Assembly (NCBI GenBank): GCA_007123695.1
Contig: SLGN01000097.1
Location: 1 to 6,163 of the forward strand
Direction of reading: 5' to 3'
Source of the DNA: Verrucomicrobiales bacterium
GTDB taxonomy: Bacteria > Verrucomicrobiota > Verrucomicrobiia > Verrucomicrobiales > DEV007
DNA length: 6,163 nucleotides
The notes beneath the pieces were generated by a model that saw only the letters and a program-made list of their open reading frames with translations, was not told the origin of the DNA and did no database searches. A program made the position numbers and the translations under genes. Within the stretch, counting starts at the first letter, position 1. Every line of letters begins with the position of its first letter. Shown here piece after piece: positions 1 through 6,163 of this stretch.

Positions 1-367
1 CGTAGCGATCCAGAATCCGCCGTTCCCAGCCCGGATTTCCCGAGCTCCGCGCCGCCTCCATCTCCCTCGCCACCTGCTCCACCACGATGTCGTCGTAGAG
101 AAGCGGCAGCAGCTCCAGCAACTGTTCCGCATCCAGCCTCGGCATCGCCTCCTTGTCCGGCACCTCCAGCAGGAGATGGAAGTGGTTGCCCATCAGGCAG
201 TAGGTCACCACCCTGACCCCGAGGAAGCGCTCCAGCTTCCGGAGGATCGACCGGAAGACCTCCTTCTCCGAGGCATGGAAGACGATGCGCCGGTCGACGA
301 CGCGCGAGATGCAGTGGTAGTAGGCCCGCCCTGCTCCGGGCGCGACGAGAATGCGGTGTGGGTTCAT
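1..367 (-). CDS. REP-associated (RAYT-like) Y1/HUH transposase, N-terminal part
   Basis: This is the 5' part of a single-strand DNA transposase of the IS200/IS605-like Y1 superfamily. The 122 visible residues read from an ATG at 367 and remain open to the window edge, so the C-terminus is missing. Near the start is a YYHCISRVVDRR stretch, the usual first strand of this family. Residues 60-70 read GNHFHLLLEVP, whose His-Phe-His (62-64) is the metal-binding HUH motif. The catalytic tyrosine normally lies further downstream and is not in view. Families of this kind (TnpA-REP/RAYT) are usually single-copy, domesticated enzymes linked to REP palindromes and lack classical IS ends; none are seen here, though the other end of the gene is outside the window. 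The spacer on its 5' side has short palindromes but no clear REP. There is no strong Shine-Dalgarno before the ATG. Whether the protein is intact cannot be judged. The family call is firm; the RAYT subclass is inferred. Confidence 0.88.
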   Translation of the reverse strand, partial: MNPHRILVAPGAGRAYYHCISRVVDRRIVFHASEKEVFRSILRKLERFLGVRVVTYCLMGNHFHLLLEVPDKEAMPRLDAEQLLELLPLLYDDIVVEQVAREMEAARSSGNPGWERRILDRY

Positions 368-628
368 GGCAGGTCAATAGGTTTTAAGTGCCTTGCAAGT
401 TACCTTGATTTGCATGAATTACGCAAACGGCTTTTCGTGAAATCAGCATGGTTTTGGCGGGCCCGTTCCTTTGATTCCGGTCCGCAATCTGCGATAAATG
501 AAAACCAGGCTAATTCTTAAAATCCGAATCGGGCCTTTTGTTTCTTTCCGAGAACGAATCCATGGAATCATTAGGAATTCCTGGAATCGAAACTATGGCT
601 TATCAATGGAGCTCGTGCGAGTTGAGCG
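368..628. other. Intergenic spacer with clustered short palindromes
   Basis: This spacer separates the stop of the phosphodiester glycosidase gene from the start of the transposase gene, both on the minus strand, and is clearly more AT-rich than the genes. It should hold the transposase promoter and the terminator of the upstream gene. I see no convincing sigma-70 promoter and no hairpin followed by a T-run. Visible symmetry includes CTTGCAAG (392-399), TTTGC-N9-GCAAA (409-427), CGGGCCCG (458-465), TCCATGGA (559-566) and AGGAATTCCT (573-582). An imperfect direct repeat (555-569 and 574-588, 12 of 15 bases identical, 19-bp period) carries the last two palindromes. Short forward-strand reading frames here look non-coding. 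Confidence 0.5.
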
Positions 629-1444
629 TCACCGCCTTGGCACGATTCCTAGGAAGTTCCTTACTGTCTTGAAGGGTTCGACCGACAAGGAAGACTGGCC
701 GCCTCCGTCGTAGTAGAGACCGGAGGAGGTGCCGCCGTCTAGATTGAGGGCGCGCCGCACCGGCCGCGCCGGGGAGAATTCAGGACGGGCGAGGATTTCG
801 CCTAGTTCTGCCAAGGTGAGGACGTCGCTGAGCCCGAGGGCAAACCAACGGTCGCCGTCATGCAGCACAAATGTCCGCCGGGCTGGCTTTTCGGCGGAAA
901 GGCCGCGTACGGTGGTTCCTCCATCGACGAGGAAGGGGCCGGATTGCACGAGGTCGGTGGGACGGTATTTTTCGGCATCGTATTCGGCCCGCCGGAGCAG
1001 GTAGGGATTGCCCCGGGCGCTGCTCAGGATCACGCCGGAGAGAAGGGCGCCCTGGCCAAAGCGTCCGGAAGCTTCGTCGGAGGCGATCATGAGCCCCGAG
1101 GGCTCGCGGTTTTCGTGGAAAAAGCCTCCGTTGCAGCCCGCCACGCAACCATGGGCGCGGAGTGCGGCGGCGAGCCCGCTGTAGCGCGGCCGCGCCTCCC
1201 CGCCGTTGTCGATGACCCGCAGGGTGTGGCGGTCGGCGTGGAACCATACTAGTTCGATCTTCTTGGGGGAAGCCATGCCAGGCCGGGCGACGAGCTTGCG
1301 TTCGTGCACGAGGGGTGCGTTCGGATTCTGCGCGGGCGATTGGTCCTCGATGCGCCAATCCGACCCACCCACGAAGACAGGCACGAAAGGGAGCAGCAGA
1401 AAAACGGCCCTTGCCCACTCGCAGCGTAACGGTTTCGAGTTCAT
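629..1444 (-). CDS. Secreted phosphodiester glycosidase-like protein (NAGPA domain)
   Basis: The predicted protein has 271 residues and belongs to the NAGPA family (Pfam PF09992, phosphodiester glycosidase). Its namesake, the mammalian uncovering enzyme, removes GlcNAc from GlcNAc-1-phospho-6-mannose. Bacterial members are secreted proteins with poorly known substrates, some acting on wall polymers or exopolysaccharide. Diagnostic motifs in order are NGGFF (105-109), LVQSGPFLVDGG (165-176) and LNLDGGTSSGLYYDGG (233-248). The N-terminus has basic residues and then a hydrophobic run AVFLLLPFVPVFVGG (13-27), a signal peptide or membrane anchor. I chose the ATG at 1444 because it gives a short basic n-region directly before this segment and follows an A/G-rich stretch. 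An ATG at 1459 would add five residues (MRKKK) and is equally plausible. The reading frame continues upstream to 1576, but that would bury the signal peptide. The gene is divergent from the Na/Pi fusion gene, with 196 bp between starts. The family call is firm; the substrate is unknown. Confidence 0.93.
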   Translation of the reverse strand: MNSKPLRCEWARAVFLLLPFVPVFVGGSDWRIEDQSPAQNPNAPLVHERKLVARPGMASPKKIELVWFHADRHTLRVIDNGGEARPRYSGLAAALRAHGCVAGCNGGFFHENREPSGLMIASDEASGRFGQGALLSGVILSSARGNPYLLRRAEYDAEKYRPTDLVQSGPFLVDGGTTVRGLSAEKPARRTFVLHDGDRWFALGLSDVLTLAELGEILARPEFSPARPVRRALNLDGGTSSGLYYDGGGQSSLSVEPFKTVRNFLGIVPRR

Positions 1445-1640
1445 CTTCTTCTTTCGCATTCCTGTTCTGCACGGACTCCGCAAAGGATACGCAGGGCGGG
1501 CGGGCGGACTTGCAAGAAACGGCTTCGCTCCGACGGCACCGCCAACAAGTTTCTTGCATCGAAGGCAACTTGGCAAAGACTCTTGTCACACCGTCTTCTT
1601 TTCCTGTAGCCCGCCACAGCCAACCGCCCGTCGCAGTTCC
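1445..1640. promoter_or_regulatory. Divergent promoter region between the glycosidase and the Na/Pi fusion gene
   Basis: These 196 bp separate two genes that start in opposite directions, so both promoters should lie here, or partly within the flanking 5' ends. I found no pair of -35/-10 boxes good enough to name. The best plus-strand candidate is TTGCAT at 1554-1559 with a poor downstream box. Neither start has a strong Shine-Dalgarno: the bases before 1641 are pyrimidine-rich, and those before 1444 are a GAAAGAAGAAG run. The arrangement allows shared regulation but does not prove it. Confidence 0.55.
1511..1558. repeat. Perfect 10-bp inverted repeat in the divergent promoter region
   Basis: TGCAAGAAAC at 1511-1520 is matched by its exact reverse complement GTTTCTTGCA at 1549-1558, with 28 bases between the arms. 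The bases flanking the arms do not pair. The repeat sits roughly midway between the two divergent starts. It could be an operator with two half-sites, or a stem in a leader RNA of either gene. There is no T-run after either arm, so an intrinsic terminator is unlikely. The function is inferred from position only. Confidence 0.4.
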
Positions 1641-4600
1641 ATGACCCCCCTCTTCATCCGCGGCGCCCTGGCCGCACTCTTCCTCGGCGGGTTGCCCTCG
1701 CTATCTGTCCTCTCGCAAGATTCCTCCGCGCGGCCACTCGAGCCGGTTGCCCTTCGCAGCAGGGTGGATTCGGTCCAGCCTTTTGCGGGCATCGTGCTAT
1801 GGGACACCAACGAACACCGTCGCACCGACGCGGTCCAACTGGAGTACTCCTACGTGGGCTATGCCGAACTCGTCGAGGAAGACGGCGGCTTGAACTGGGA
1901 CTTCCTCGAGAAGAAGCTCGACGCGATCGCCGAGCGCGGGCACCAGGCCATCCTGCGCTTCTATCTCGTCTATCCGGGCAAGCCCTCGCAGGTGCCGGCC
2001 CATCTGCGCGCCCTGCCGGACTACGAGGAGACGGTGGCGAAGAGCGAGGGCAAGGACACCCCTTTTCCCGACTGGTCGCACCCCGCCCTCCAGTCCTTCG
2101 TGATGGATTTCCACACTGCCTTCGCCGAGCGCTACGACGAGGATCCGCGGCTCGCCTTCGTCCAGGTCGGCTTCGGTATCTGGGCGGAGTACCACATCTA
2201 CGACGGTCCCTTCGAGCTGGGCAAGACCTTTCCCGACAAGGCCTACCAAGGCCGGTTTTTGCGCCACCTCGCCTCGGTCTGCCGCAGCACGCCCTTTTCC
2301 ATTTCGGTCGATGCGGCCAAGCCGAAAGCGGGGCCCTTCGAGGAGAATCCGTCGCTGCTCGACCTGGCTTTCGGAGTCTTCGACGATTCGCTGCTGAACA
2401 AGGACCATGGCAAGTGGAACCAGCGCGACTGGGAAAAGGTGGGCCTCGACCGGTCCCTGCGAGCCCCGGCGGGCGGCGAGTTCAGCTACTACACCGATCA
2501 CGACCAGAAGGAGGCGCTCGCTCCCGACGGGCCCCATGGCGAGTCCTTCGAGTCGGCGGCGCGCCGCTTCGGCTTGAGCTATGTGATCGGGGACGACCAG
2601 CCGAACCACCAGTCCATGGAGCGCATCCGCGAGGCCGGCATCGCCAGCGGCTACCGCTTCCGCGTTGTCGCCTTCGAGAGCGGTCCGGGGCGGTCCATCG
2701 TGCGAATCCGCAACGAGGGCGTCGCGCCGATCTACTACGACGCGCATCCGGCCATCGACGGGGTGCGGGCGGAGGCGTCGCTCAAGGGCCTTGCCCCCGG
2801 GGCGGAGGCCGCGTTCGAAATCAAAGCGGGCGGCGACAACCCGGCCTTCTCGATCGAATGCGACCGACTCCTGCCGGGCCAGGCCATCGGCTTCGACGCC
2901 GAACTCGGGGACGATGCGGCACCTCCGGCGGCTTCGTCGGAGGAAGCCCGTGTCGGCAGCCCGGGGCAGGCAGCCGCAGACGTCGGAGCAGGCGACGCGG
3001 CCAGCGAGGCCCCGCCTCCGCAGGAAGCCGACGAGGCGGACTCCGCCCGCAGCTCCGGCCCCGCAGCGGGCGCCGAGGCTGGAGCTGCGGGCGGAGTCGC
3101 CGCTTTCTTCCCCCTCGCTGGAGGGATTGGCCTTTTTCTCCTCGGGATGGCTCTGCTCACCGAGGGGGTCAAGGCCTACGCAGGCCAGTCCCTGCGCCTC
3201 GCCCTGCTCCGGTTCACGGGGACACCGGCGAAGGCCTTCGTTTCCGGCGCGCTGGCCACTTCGCTGCTGCAGTCGTCCAGCGCCACCACCGTGACGGTGA
3301 TCGGTTTTGTCAGCGCCGGGATTCTGAGCTTCCCCCAGGCCATCGGAGTGATCTTCGGCGCCAGCCTCGGAACGACCGCGACGGGCTGGCTCGTGGCCGG
3401 GCTCGGACTCAAGTTCAGTATTGGACTCTACGCGATGCCGCTCGTGGGCATCGGCGCCTTTCTGCATCTCCTTGCCGAGGGGCGAACCCGGGCCTTCGGC
3501 ACGGCGCTCGCGGGCTTCGGTTTGATCTTCATGGGAATCGACCTTCTGCAGGAGGGGATGCGGGGGCTCACGGACTTGGTCGATCCGGGGCGGATCCCCC
3601 AGGGCGGATTCCTCGCCCATCTCGCCGCGATGCTCGCCGGGATCTTCCTCACCGTGGCGATGCAGTCGTCCAGCGCCGCCGTGGCCACCGCCCTGACCGC
3701 GCTTCACACCGGCGCCATCCATTTCGAACAGGCCGCCTCCCTCGTCGTCGGAGCGGCCATCGGCACGACCGTCACCGGAATCATCGCCGCGATCGGAGGC
3801 ACGGTGCCGGCCAAGCGCACCGCTCTCGCGCACGTTCTCTTCAATCTCGCCACCGGCCTTGTCGCCGTCGTGCTGCTGCCTCTGCTGCTCAAGGTCATCG
3901 AAGTCGCGCAGGAGCGGCTCGGGCTCGAAGGCGGTGCTCTCGGACTCGCCGCCTTCCACACCGTCTTCATTTCCCTCGGCGTGCTCCTCTTCCTTCCTTT
4001 CGTGGACCGCTTCGCCGCCTTCATCGAAAAGCTCCTGCCCGACCGCGGGCCACATCTCACCCGGCATCTCGACCGCACCGTGCTGCGGACGCCCTCGGTG
4101 GCGCTGGAGGCTTCCAAGCGTGCCCTCGCCGGGATTGCCATAGGTGCCTTCGAGCGCCTGATTCCCTTTGTTTCGGGCACCAAGCTCCCCGCTGCGAAAC
4201 CGCTCGGATCGACGGTGCTACGAGAGGCTCTCGACCGCACCCGCGAGTTTCTCGGCAGCATCCCGTCGCCGTCCGTCGACTCGCAGAATACGCAATCTCA
4301 CCTCGCCCAGCTCCACGCGATCGACCACCTGGAGCGGCTCCTTTCCAAACTGAAACCGCCGCCGCTGCCGCCGGAATCCAGCATCGAGACGCACGAGACG
4401 CTTGAAACCGGATCCGATCTCGCGTGCAGGATTCTCACCACCGCCAAGCAAGGTCTTTCCGGAGCGGCGGGTCCTCGCTGGACGGACGAGGTCGCGAGCC
4501 TGTCCAAAGCCCTCGCCGATCTGCGCCGCGAGAGCCGACCCCGGCTCATCGAGGAAGCCAGCCGGGCCGGGATCGATCCGCGCGGGACTCTCGCATTGAT

Positions 4601-4769
4601 CGACCGACTGCGGTGGCACGACCGCATCGCCTTCCACAGCTGGCGCACTTCGCTACACCTCGATCAGAACGCCACCAAGGCGGTGGAGCCTTCCGGTTCC
4701 GATGAAGATCCGCAGGAAGCCGAGGAGGAAAATGGAAGCACGCCCGACGATTTGGACTCTTTGACTTGA
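1641..4769 (+). CDS. Fusion protein: secreted DUF4832-like barrel + Na/Pi cotransporter + PhoU-like domain
   Basis: The protein has 1042 residues. Residues 1-25 form a signal peptide (FIRGALAALFLGGLPSLSVLS) with likely cleavage before Q26. Residues ~45-335 look like a DUF4832-type, glycoside-hydrolase-like barrel, with landmarks RGHQAILRFYLVYPG (99-113), GFGIWAEYHIYDGP (E183) and PAGGEFSYYTD (E280). Residues ~338-423 resemble a beta-sandwich. Residues ~424-488 are an Ala/Pro/Glu/Gly linker. From ~489 it is a Na/Pi cotransporter (PF02690, NptA/PhoU-like class), with two inverted halves marked QSSSA (544-548, 675-679) and GASLGTT/GAAIGTT (573-579, 704-710) and about nine hydrophobic stretches. 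Residues ~815-1042 are a helical PhoU-like tail ending in acidic residues. The last ~554 residues alone match a normal complete transporter of this family, so an entire extracytoplasmic protein has been added. I chose the ATG at 1641 because it places the signal peptide at the N-terminus; the frame is open further upstream but overlaps the divergent gene. The transporter call is firm, the barrel family probable, and the substrate unknown. Confidence 0.95.
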   Translation: MTPLFIRGALAALFLGGLPSLSVLSQDSSARPLEPVALRSRVDSVQPFAGIVLWDTNEHRRTDAVQLEYSYVGYAELVEEDGGLNWDFLEKKLDAIAERGHQAILRFYLVYPGKPSQVPAHLRALPDYEETVAKSEGKDTPFPDWSHPALQSFVMDFHTAFAERYDEDPRLAFVQVGFGIWAEYHIYDGPFELGKTFPDKAYQGRFLRHLASVCRSTPFSISVDAAKPKAGPFEENPSLLDLAFGVFDDSLLNKDHGKWNQRDWEKVGLDRSLRAPAGGEFSYYTDHDQKEALAPDGPHGESFESAARRFGLSYVIGDDQPNHQSMERIREAGIASGYRFRVVAFESGPGRSIVRIRNEGVAPIYYDAHPAIDGVRAEASLKGLAPGAEAAFEIKAGGDNPAFSIECDRLLPGQAIGFDAELGDDAAPPAASSEEARVGSPGQAAADVGAGDAASEAPPPQEADEADSARSSGPAAGAEAGAAGGVAAFFPLAGGIGLFLLGMALLTEGVKAYAGQSLRLALLRFTGTPAKAFVSGALATSLLQSSSATTVTVIGFVSAGILSFPQAIGVIFGASLGTTATGWLVAGLGLKFSIGLYAMPLVGIGAFLHLLAEGRTRAFGTALAGFGLIFMGIDLLQEGMRGLTDLVDPGRIPQGGFLAHLAAMLAGIFLTVAMQSSSAAVATALTALHTGAIHFEQAASLVVGAAIGTTVTGIIAAIGGTVPAKRTALAHVLFNLATGLVAVVLLPLLLKVIEVAQERLGLEGGALGLAAFHTVFISLGVLLFLPFVDRFAAFIEKLLPDRGPHLTRHLDRTVLRTPSVALEASKRALAGIAIGAFERLIPFVSGTKLPAAKPLGSTVLREALDRTREFLGSIPSPSVDSQNTQSHLAQLHAIDHLERLLSKLKPPPLPPESSIETHETLETGSDLACRILTTAKQGLSGAAGPRWTDEVASLSKALADLRRESRPRLIEEASRAGIDPRGTLALIDRLRWHDRIAFHSWRTSLHLDQNATKAVEPSGSDEDPQEAEEENGSTPDDLDSLT

Positions 4770-5029
4770 TGGCCGGGCGGCGGAGTTGAAAGACGTGAGA
4801 TCTTCATAAGGCGCGTCGAAGGCATCTAACCTATGCGTTTCGCGGTTTCTTGCCGGGGCGCATCCAGTGATGAAGCTTTTAATCAATATTTTAAACAAGG
4901 CAAGTTAATTGTTTTGTAAAGATTCAGAAAGGAACCACCTCTGGATCGAATCTTCGCTTCCGACCGTTTCGTTTACTATTTAAGCGGATTCCGTGAGTCG
5001 CAGAGACTAGGCGATCGATCATGAAGCGC
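4770..5029. other. Convergent intergenic spacer with AT-rich core
   Basis: This spacer lies between the 3' ends of two converging genes. It should contain terminators for both but shows no classical GC-rich hairpin with a T-run. The core at about 4870-4980 is strikingly AT-rich compared with the coding DNA around it. A weak AT hairpin pairs AAACAA (4893-4898) with TTGTTT (4909-4914). An imperfect stem pairs GAATC-TT-CGCTT (near 4950) with AAGCGGATTC (near 4982). I see no RNA gene and no credible small protein in it. Confidence 0.5.
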
Positions 5030-5737
5030 CTACGTTCGCAGCGTCCAGCTCCCGTGGACGAGGCATCTCGACTTCAAGACGTTCGCGATCGTGATCTTCG
5101 CGTCCGAGCGGTCGAGCTTGAGGGTGAAGTCCGGGGGAATCTGGCCGACCGGGATGTTGATGGTGGGACCATCTGCACGAAACTCCGAGGAAGGCAGCTC
5201 GAGGATCGGGGCGAAGAGGGCGACGGGGATGCCGACCATTTCGTAATTGCCTGTCGCTGCGAAATAGCGGAGCTGGATGATTTCATCGACCTCCTCGCAG
5301 AAGATCTCGAAAAGCTTGCAGGTAAACTGCCGTCGCTTCGCCGGGGTCCGGCAGTCTTGGATCCAAGCCGCCTCGGTGAGCTTGCTGATGTGGAGGGTGT
5401 CCTTCCTCAGCGACTTGGCGCGGCTCGATTTCAGGCTAATCTTCCTGCCGTCGATCTCGACGTCCCAGAAGCGCTGGCCGTCCGGCGCCTTGGAGACGCT
5501 GAAACCGGCGATCTCCGCCGAGGCGATGAAGGCGGTGTCGAAGCTTTCCTGGAACAAGGGGTTGCCGAGGAAGACGTGCTGCGCGAGGAGCCTCGATTGG
5601 AACTCCTCGACGAACTCGGCGCTCATTAGCGGGGAGCTTTCCGCGACGCGCACCTCGACAGCGGTGCGGAGCGCGGCGACCAGCTCAGAGACGCGGCGCT
5701 GTTCCGACGGGGAAAGGCGGAGGACCAACTCAGGCAT
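5030..5737 (-). CDS. Probable type II restriction endonuclease, PD-(D/E)xK-like, family not recognised
   Basis: This 235-residue soluble protein has no signal peptide or membrane segment. I do not recognise its exact family. The restriction endonuclease call rests on three points. It directly follows a cytosine-5 DNA methyltransferase on the same strand. Its ATG at 5737 overlaps the methyltransferase stop by 8 bp, as in many restriction-modification pairs, which suggests translational coupling. Residues 90-105 read FWDVEIDGRKISLKSS, like the core of a PD-(D/E)xK nuclease: Asp92 on one strand and S101-L-K103 on the next, with Ser in place of the usual second acid. Glu64 or Glu75 in the helix-rich N-terminal part could supply a further metal ligand. 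The length is typical for a type II enzyme. The C-terminal part (about 165-235) is strand-rich and may be the DNA-recognition region. A regulator or other accessory protein is possible but less likely. The enzyme should cut the site the neighbouring enzyme methylates; that site cannot be read here. Confidence 0.8.
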   Translation of the reverse strand: MPELVLRLSPSEQRRVSELVAALRTAVEVRVAESSPLMSAEFVEEFQSRLLAQHVFLGNPLFQESFDTAFIASAEIAGFSVSKAPDGQRFWDVEIDGRKISLKSSRAKSLRKDTLHISKLTEAAWIQDCRTPAKRRQFTCKLFEIFCEEVDEIIQLRYFAATGNYEMVGIPVALFAPILELPSSEFRADGPTINIPVGQIPPDFTLKLDRSDAKITIANVLKSRCLVHGSWTLRT

Positions 5738-6163
5738 ATTGGAGCAGGCTGGGTTCCAAGGTTTCTTCGATGTCGGAGGGGCGCAGATGGGTTCCGGGGA
5801 GGATGGCGTCGTGCGGGGTCTTGCTTTTCCCCGTCAGCATCCATTCGCAGACGTGGGCGAGCTGGTAGGAGACCAAGGGAGGCACCGCGTCGCCGATGTG
5901 TCGATAGCGGTTCGACAGCGCCGAGCCCTCGAAGCGGAAGTCGTTGGGGAAGCCTTGCAGGATCGCCATCTCGCGGACGGAGCAGAGGCGGTCCTCGGCG
6001 GGGTGCGCGTAACGCCCGTTGCCGATGTGGGCGCACTCGCGCTTGATCGTCGGGGCGGGGCGGTCCCAACTCATGCGTCCATAGACGTCGGGGTGCGAGC
6101 CGAGCTTCCTGCGGGCGACGAGCCGCTTCATCGCGGGGGTCATCAGTGCGTCGGCGTCCGGCC
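5730..6163 (-). CDS. DNA (cytosine-5-)-methyltransferase, C-terminal part
   Basis: This is the C-terminal part of a C5-cytosine methyltransferase, which transfers a methyl group from S-adenosylmethionine to cytosine in a specific DNA site. The frame is open to the right edge, so the N-terminal motifs I-VI, including the catalytic Pro-Cys, are outside the window. Visible are a motif VIII-like segment (YGRMSWDRPAPTIKRE), a motif IX segment (RLCSVREMAILQGFPNDFRF) and motif X (RYRHIGDAVPPLVSYQLA, near 5865-5905). Motif X usually reads GNAVPP; here Asn is replaced by Asp. Motifs VIII and IX are only about 20 residues apart, a normal distance. The target-recognition region lies before motif IX and is mostly out of view. 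About 35 residues follow motif X, ending in LLQYA. The stop overlaps the start of the downstream nuclease gene by 8 bp, so the two form an operon with methyltransferase first. Its role is to protect host DNA from the partner nuclease. The family call is very firm. Confidence 0.94.
   Translation of the reverse strand, partial: PDADALMTPAMKRLVARRKLGSHPDVYGRMSWDRPAPTIKRECAHIGNGRYAHPAEDRLCSVREMAILQGFPNDFRFEGSALSNRYRHIGDAVPPLVSYQLAHVCEWMLTGKSKTPHDAILPGTHLRPSDIEETLEPSLLQYA

Follow-up and report, generated by a model that had tools for sequence, protein, structure and literature searches.

Why should a likely bacterial phosphate transporter carry at its N-terminus a domain predicted to be exported and to fold like a glycosidase? 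The question is raised by a single gene of a Verrucomicrobiales bacterium (DEV007; assembly GCA_007123695.1), located on contig SLGN01000097.1, positions 1-6,163 of which were analysed on the forward strand (the window, 6,163 nucleotides). Its product, P0001, is best read as a membrane-tethered periplasmic glycosidase-like barrel, a disordered linker and an NptA-type phosphate importer united in one protein, an interpretation to which we assign a probability of roughly 0.55. The initial annotation, made from the sequence without database searches, had described one uninterrupted gene, and this is confirmed by an open frame of 1042 residues from start to stop codon. The individual elements named in it are likewise all present, the tail being the weakest of them, and are arranged as follows.

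1641..4769, plus strand: whole fusion gene (P0001), 1042 amino acids, uninterrupted open frame with ATG at 1641 and stop codon at 4767-4769
1641..1718, plus strand: likely cleavable signal peptide, residues 1-26, judged by eye
1731..2651, plus strand: predicted (beta/alpha)8 glycoside-hydrolase-like barrel, residues 31-337
2187..2189, plus strand: codon of Glu183, proposed catalytic residue in the loop after strand 4, from the alignment and the strand order of the model
2478..2480, plus strand: codon of Glu280, proposed catalytic residue on strand 7, from the alignment and the strand order of the model
2652..2915, plus strand: predicted C-terminal beta-sandwich, residues 338-425, with model strands between 340 and 422
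2916..3086, plus strand: predicted disordered linker rich in Ala, Pro, Glu, Gly, Ser and Asp, residues 426-482, of low model confidence
3087..4040, plus strand: complete two-repeat Na/Pi cotransporter, residues 483-800, with two PF02690 matches and a match to SLC34A2a
4041..4670, plus strand: remotely PhoU-like helical tail, residues 801-1010, from model helices and a profile-profile match

The single frame, the order of the parts, the presence of the fusion in five proteins and the family-invariant residues kept in both halves are demonstrated directly. The full-length AlphaFold model of P0001 has a mean predicted local distance difference test score (pLDDT) of 85.6 and a predicted template modelling score (pTM) of 0.57.

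Occurrence and evolution of the fusion

When about 5.8 billion proteins were searched with the entire P0001 sequence, 32 matches were listed; five of these, P0001 itself included, cover nearly all of it. The four other fusions, P0002 (72% identity), P0003 (68%), P0004 (62%) and P0005 (58%), span 96-98% of P0001 with the domain order unchanged. The search for this domain order called for in the initial annotation thus found the fusion again, and the idea that relatives always encode the two halves as separate genes failed. The two halves form a single chain in four further proteins, and the fusion is therefore not a joining error. The initial annotation also proposed to check whether close relatives keep fusion and linker; the fusion is kept in these four proteins, but the linker varies in sequence and length.

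In the genome surveys a full-length match was found in one genome of each set, always the window's own: one of 74 for the family (E up to 1e-3), one of 386 for the order (1e-100), one of 384 for the class with P0004 as query (1e-120), and one of 387 for the phylum with P0002 as query (1e-120). The four sets overlap, each includes that genome, and the strict thresholds could miss a much more diverged fusion; the remaining matches listed cover one half only. The fusion is rare in the searched data, but not unique. Each half is abundant in searches of its own, with 1915 matches to the N-terminal half (the best 120 being 376-459 residues long, top identity 69%) and 3228 to the transporter half (the best 120 being 523-587 residues long, top identity 58%); these searches could not show fusions, because proteins far from the query length were excluded.

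Among the ten pairs of fusions, identity is 66-81% in the barrel, 67-80% in the membrane part and 42-60% in the tail, while it falls to 12-54% in the linker and 11-43% in the signal-peptide region. Because the barrel and the membrane part are alike in identity while the linker and signal peptide drift, the two halves are constrained to a similar degree. In 120 standalone proteins 91 barrel columns reach at least 98% identity, and the fusions retain 88-89 of them; of the 136 columns near-invariant (at least 98%) in 119 standalone transporters (the 120 listed minus P0196) they retain 130-134, the transporter and tail of P0001 retaining 131.

In the barrel tree (45 rows, that of P0004 entered uncut and its surplus columns dropped by a 60% filter), the five fusions form one clade beside standalone proteins, with support of 97/85; 96% of 200 bootstrap replicates recover it. 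The 53-row transporter tree places the unfused P0196 (577 amino acids) next to P0005 as its sister (100/99), and these two fall with the other four fusions into one clade (100/99); a clade of fusions only is rejected (approximately unbiased test, p-AU 0.0175). The simplest history that fits both trees is a single fusion event, after which the P0196 lineage lost its barrel, two separate fusions being less likely. With its apparent barrel loss, P0196 is a natural control for what the fusion adds.

A long frame of 817 codons in genome G452 was considered as a further fusion and rejected: its upstream part is rich in Arg and by eye reads like another frame, and a Met lies directly before the first helix. 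The transporter of genome G077 starts at a contig end and resembles the unfused P0266. Neighbouring separate genes, as an intermediate, were not seen: in 88 loci, many of them with no more than about 1.5 kb of flanking sequence, the halves occur together only in L001, L005, L011, L052 and L066, all derived from P0001's own contig. A thin search of open-access full-text literature found no report of a glycosidase-type domain fused to a NaPi-II/NptA transporter. The parts are already known, and the combination, which this search did not turn up, would judging by sequence constitute a multidomain NptA-type transporter.

The predicted N-terminal barrel and sandwich

Residues 31-425 are modelled by AlphaFold as a well-folded barrel and sandwich with a mean pLDDT of 93.3. 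The folded barrel of the initial annotation is borne out by this high-confidence model, and the refuting outcome named there, an N-terminal part without a barrel, did not appear. The model shows a TIM barrel followed by a beta-sandwich, the layout described for SIR_1591, a DUF4832 hydrolase with published activity from the pel operon of S. intermedius (PMC12345266). Fold searches with the whole model listed only glycosidase-type barrels as matches, so that the comparison by fold covers the barrel.

Of the 98 rows in the alignment of the N-terminal half, 51 match DUF4832, 25 GH42 and five DUF4874 (E up to 0.1). Several barrel relatives with 56-67% identity bear the NCBI name 'DUF4832 domain-containing protein', and the named relatives are mostly from Verrucomicrobiota and Planctomycetes; the nearest standalone barrels, P0033 and P0034, carry no family name. 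As P0001 has no Pfam DUF4832 match of its own, its barrel is called a relative of DUF4832 (PF16116) and not a member; on these sequence relationships, it is a divergent relative of the DUF4832 proteins.

Glu183 and Glu280 are glutamate in all 136 aligned sequences, all five fusions included, and a further set of Asp, His, Asn, Trp and Tyr residues is invariant across the same 136. Strand order counted on the model places Glu183 in the loop after strand 4 and Glu280 on strand 7 of the (beta/alpha)8 barrel, as in the clan GH-A-like pattern; a Glu after strand 4 together with a Glu on strand 7 is the arrangement of 4/7-type glycosidases. The description of the domain as carbohydrate-active, proposed from the start, is strengthened by the invariant glutamates and by the characterised DUF4832 hydrolase (PMC12345266).

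By eye, all five fusions begin like signal peptides, with a short start, a hydrophobic core and, ahead of a possible cleavage site, small residues; that of P0005 is read from Met 72, its listed start lying further upstream. The corresponding region of the standalone relative P0033 is, also by eye, similar in look.

The barrel family is also found inside longer proteins of 576-1130 amino acids (P0006, P0008, P0010, P0025, P0027 and similar), whose precomputed whole-protein Pfam lists include PF00150, PF13472 and PF17957, and the barrel may be a frequently shuffled module. One standalone barrel gene (L088 in genome G009) is truncated, matching at 51% over residues 19-121, after which the similarity ends. 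In genome G500 two sulfatases and two genes whose GH42 matches fall below threshold neighbour a standalone barrel.

The Na/Pi cotransporter and its tail

The Na/Pi cotransporter was the sole family found in the Pfam scan of P0001. PF02690 matches twice (E 8.7e-49, 165.5 bits against a cut-off of 29.1) and NF037997 covers residues 496-795 (182.5 bits against a cut-off of 50), confirming that the two-repeat cotransporter is complete. TIGR00704, covering residues 492-802 (E 7.4e-60), is a near miss with 203.2 bits, slightly below its cut-off of 210.1. The motifs QSSSATT at 544 and QSSSAAV at 675 are both also found in all five fusions, and SLC34A2a (9z60) aligns with P0001 across both repeats. 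On these matches, this half likely belongs to the NptA-type Na/Pi cotransporter family. The view that transporters of this class start near their first membrane segment holds among the 114 of 120 listed standalone transporters in which the first-helix motif was found, with a median of 9 and at most 37 residues ahead of it.

The tail is helical in the full-length model. By hhalign, its profile matches that of the tails of 17 Na/Pi proteins, two of which were checked as carrying Pfam PhoU, with a probability of 77.7 (E 1.9e-5, 194 columns), the reversed control giving 0.1. Pfam PhoU is matched by two of the 36 rows of the transporter-half alignment A4. The A4 profile also matched PhoU structures; with its four most distant rows removed (Pfam PhoU is present in two of these), the matches vanished, which speaks against direct membership of the tail in PhoU. 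Of the PhoU-like tail first proposed, the helices and a remote profile-profile resemblance stand; a Pfam match, or one with the profile of close relatives, does not, and the likeness is a weak one.

Membrane topology and linker

Read on the model, each repeat consists of three crossings and a hairpin, followed after the second repeat by one more crossing and the helical tail; the re-entrant nature of the hairpins is taken from the published NaPi-II model (PMC6325988). The roughly nine hydrophobic segments noted initially are thereby refined to seven crossings and two re-entrant hairpins, and with seven crossings the N- and C-termini lie on opposite sides of the membrane. In 31 of 32 rows the side opposite the N-terminus has the greater number of Lys and Arg, and in the remaining row the two sides are equal (mean 8.5 versus 3.7). 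The count covers 32 of the 36 A4 rows, with the four most distant omitted, the tail uncounted and the loop borders set by us from the model. Since the tail should lie inside, given the signalling role of its counterpart in S. aureus (PMC13170248), and the termini are on opposite sides, the N-terminus would be outside; the signal peptides seen by eye ahead of the barrel in all five fusions fit this orientation. Charge distribution and helix count thus support the placement of the barrel outside and the tail inside given in the initial annotation, and the predicted topology has the N-terminus in the periplasm and the tail in the cytoplasm.

The linker has a pLDDT under 50 over residues 426-480, with block means of 26-38 over residues 431-480, and measures 26-65 residues across the five fusions between P0001 positions 423 and 485. 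Because it is predicted to be disordered, the position of the barrel relative to the membrane part is unreliable in the model; that the barrel lies 'at the mouth' of the phosphate transporter is something we infer.

Proposed function and alternatives

In the proposed mechanism, the signal peptide would export the barrel and the transporter would insert behind it, so that the flexible tether keeps the glycosidase beside the importer, on the outer side of the inner membrane. Glu183 and Glu280 would be the catalytic pair with which the barrel cleaves an exopolysaccharide or a glycan of the envelope, the transporter would import phosphate with sodium, and the tail would report or limit phosphate uptake. 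Such tethering would most likely serve where a phosphate-bearing glycan is broken down. The functional coupling of glycan cleavage to phosphate capture is the least certain element. A bolder version, in which one molecule couples the breakdown of phosphate-bearing glycan to phosphate capture and the exported barrel fixes the N-terminus outside, leaving NptA upside-down relative to SLC34, would combine a periplasmic glycosidase at the outer mouth of the importer, a phosphate-sensing cytoplasmic tail and a natural topology reporter; we regard it as rather unlikely.

Several results weigh against the glycosidase-importer interpretation. For the barrel, the Pfam scan gave the N-terminal half of P0001 itself neither a DUF4832 nor a glycoside hydrolase match, its family profile found no related entry among the sequences of the Protein Data Bank (PDB), and the SIR_1591 deletion mutant is reported to have no phenotype (PMC12345266). 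For the transporter, P0196 shows that it can do without the barrel, some family members such as YjbB are insufficient for phosphate import (PMC13170248), and the tail of P0001 has no Pfam PhoU match, in addition to the loss of the PhoU structure matches described above. For the topology, only one of the 32 rows in the charge count is a fusion, the loop borders and the choice of rows were ours, and the published orientation of SLC34 has the N-terminus inside (PMC6325988). Finally, across the 88 loci no tie between the two functions was found beyond the fusion itself.

Among the alternatives, the one with a modest chance of being right holds that the transporter is mainly a membrane anchor and that the barrel acts as its standalone relatives do, without any coupling of glycan to phosphate. 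The barrel does exist without a transporter (120 listed proteins of 376-459 residues, longer ones being outside the length range of the search), the predicted tether of SIR_1591 is just one membrane helix (PMC12345266), and the linker is unconserved in sequence and length. An anchor, however, would not need both QSSS motifs, a second repeat and a tail, nor would it be expected to keep 130-134 of 136 near-invariant transporter positions in a membrane part as conserved as the barrel.

It is quite unlikely that the transporter moves another anion or acts as an exporter, the pairing then being unrelated to phosphate uptake. The TIGR00704 score just under its cut-off leans this way, as do NptA-like groups without assigned function and the insufficiency of YjbB for import (PMC13170248), but the NF037997 Na/Pi symporter model is matched well above its cut-off, and the SLC34 homology across both repeats and the remotely PhoU-like tail argue against it. 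Still less probable is a non-catalytic barrel that binds or senses glycan, placing the transporter on an envelope polymer or reporting on that polymer: DUF4832 sandwiches are described as resembling carbohydrate-binding domains (PMC12345266), and hydrolase activity in this subfamily is a prediction, yet a domain that did no more than bind would rarely show such invariance of both glutamates and of the Asp, His, Asn, Trp and Tyr set in 136 sequences. The idea that assembly or annotation joined two genes by mistake, for which one could cite the 6.2-kb contig of a fragmented assembly (759 contigs) and the separate occurrence of both halves in relatives, has practically no chance in view of the four other fused proteins at 58-72% identity, the near-equal GC content of the two halves (0.66 and 0.67) and the single clade of the five barrels.

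Genomic context

The fusion gene is divergent, across a gap of 181 bp, from a gene for an NAGPA phosphodiester-glycosidase (PF09992, E 1.9e-14) at 629-1459 on the minus strand, whose product of 276 amino acids from the ATG is likely exported. This neighbour could fit a phosphoglycan substrate; in the 88 loci the gene is found only in those of P0001's contig, and none lies beside standalone halves. Between the divergent genes, at 1511-1558, there is a perfect 10-bp inverted repeat with a 28-nt spacer, possibly an operator or a hairpin, whose pattern matches nowhere else in the genome; an Rfam scan of the window gave no match.

Downstream, the region 5030-6143 encodes on the minus strand a SmaI-family restriction endonuclease (PF17411, E 7.6e-8) and a C5-cytosine DNA methyltransferase. 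The contig end truncates the methyltransferase gene, whose 3' end the endonuclease gene overlaps. SmaI itself pairs with an N4-cytosine methylase, and a C5 partner for an enzyme of this family would therefore be unusual. At the other end of the window, an IS200-like (Y1_Tnp) transposase gene (2-367, minus strand, E 1.1e-8) is cut by the contig end.

Comparison with known systems

If the parts work as predicted, P0001 would link polysaccharide breakdown to phosphate uptake. On the barrel side, the closest characterised likeness is SIR_1591, compared with P0001 by description and not by sequence, which is tethered by a single predicted N-terminal helix and has no transporter (PMC12345266); its operon also encodes a predicted polyphosphate polymerase, a CotH-type kinase and an MgtC-domain protein (PMC12345266, PMC7112168). 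Standalone barrels, the best 120 of 1915 matches, are 52-69% identical to P0001 over most of its N-terminal half, and the standalone DUF4832-named proteins of Verrucomicrobiota and Planctomycetes (e.g. P0048 and P0083) end after the sandwich, without linker or membrane part.

On the transporter side, NptA of S. aureus (PF02690, NF037997) has two QSSS repeats followed by a helical tail, as does P0001. The NptA type has a C-terminal PhoU domain, which in S. aureus affects PhoPR signalling (PMC13170248), whereas the tail of P0001 resembles PhoU remotely. The residues ahead of the first-helix motif number 493 in P0001 as against at most 37 in the listed standalone transporters.

Vertebrate SLC34 proteins (NaPi-II, e.g. 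SLC34A2a, 9z60) share the homologous two-repeat core with its QSSS motifs. With the fusion it becomes testable whether the N-terminus of bacterial NptA proteins that carry a PhoU-like tail lies outside, the reverse of SLC34, a point relevant to the evolutionary orientation of the two inverted repeats. As the N-terminus of SLC34 is published as inside (PMC6325988) and that of P0001 is predicted to be outside, the bacterial class would be inverted relative to its vertebrate counterpart.

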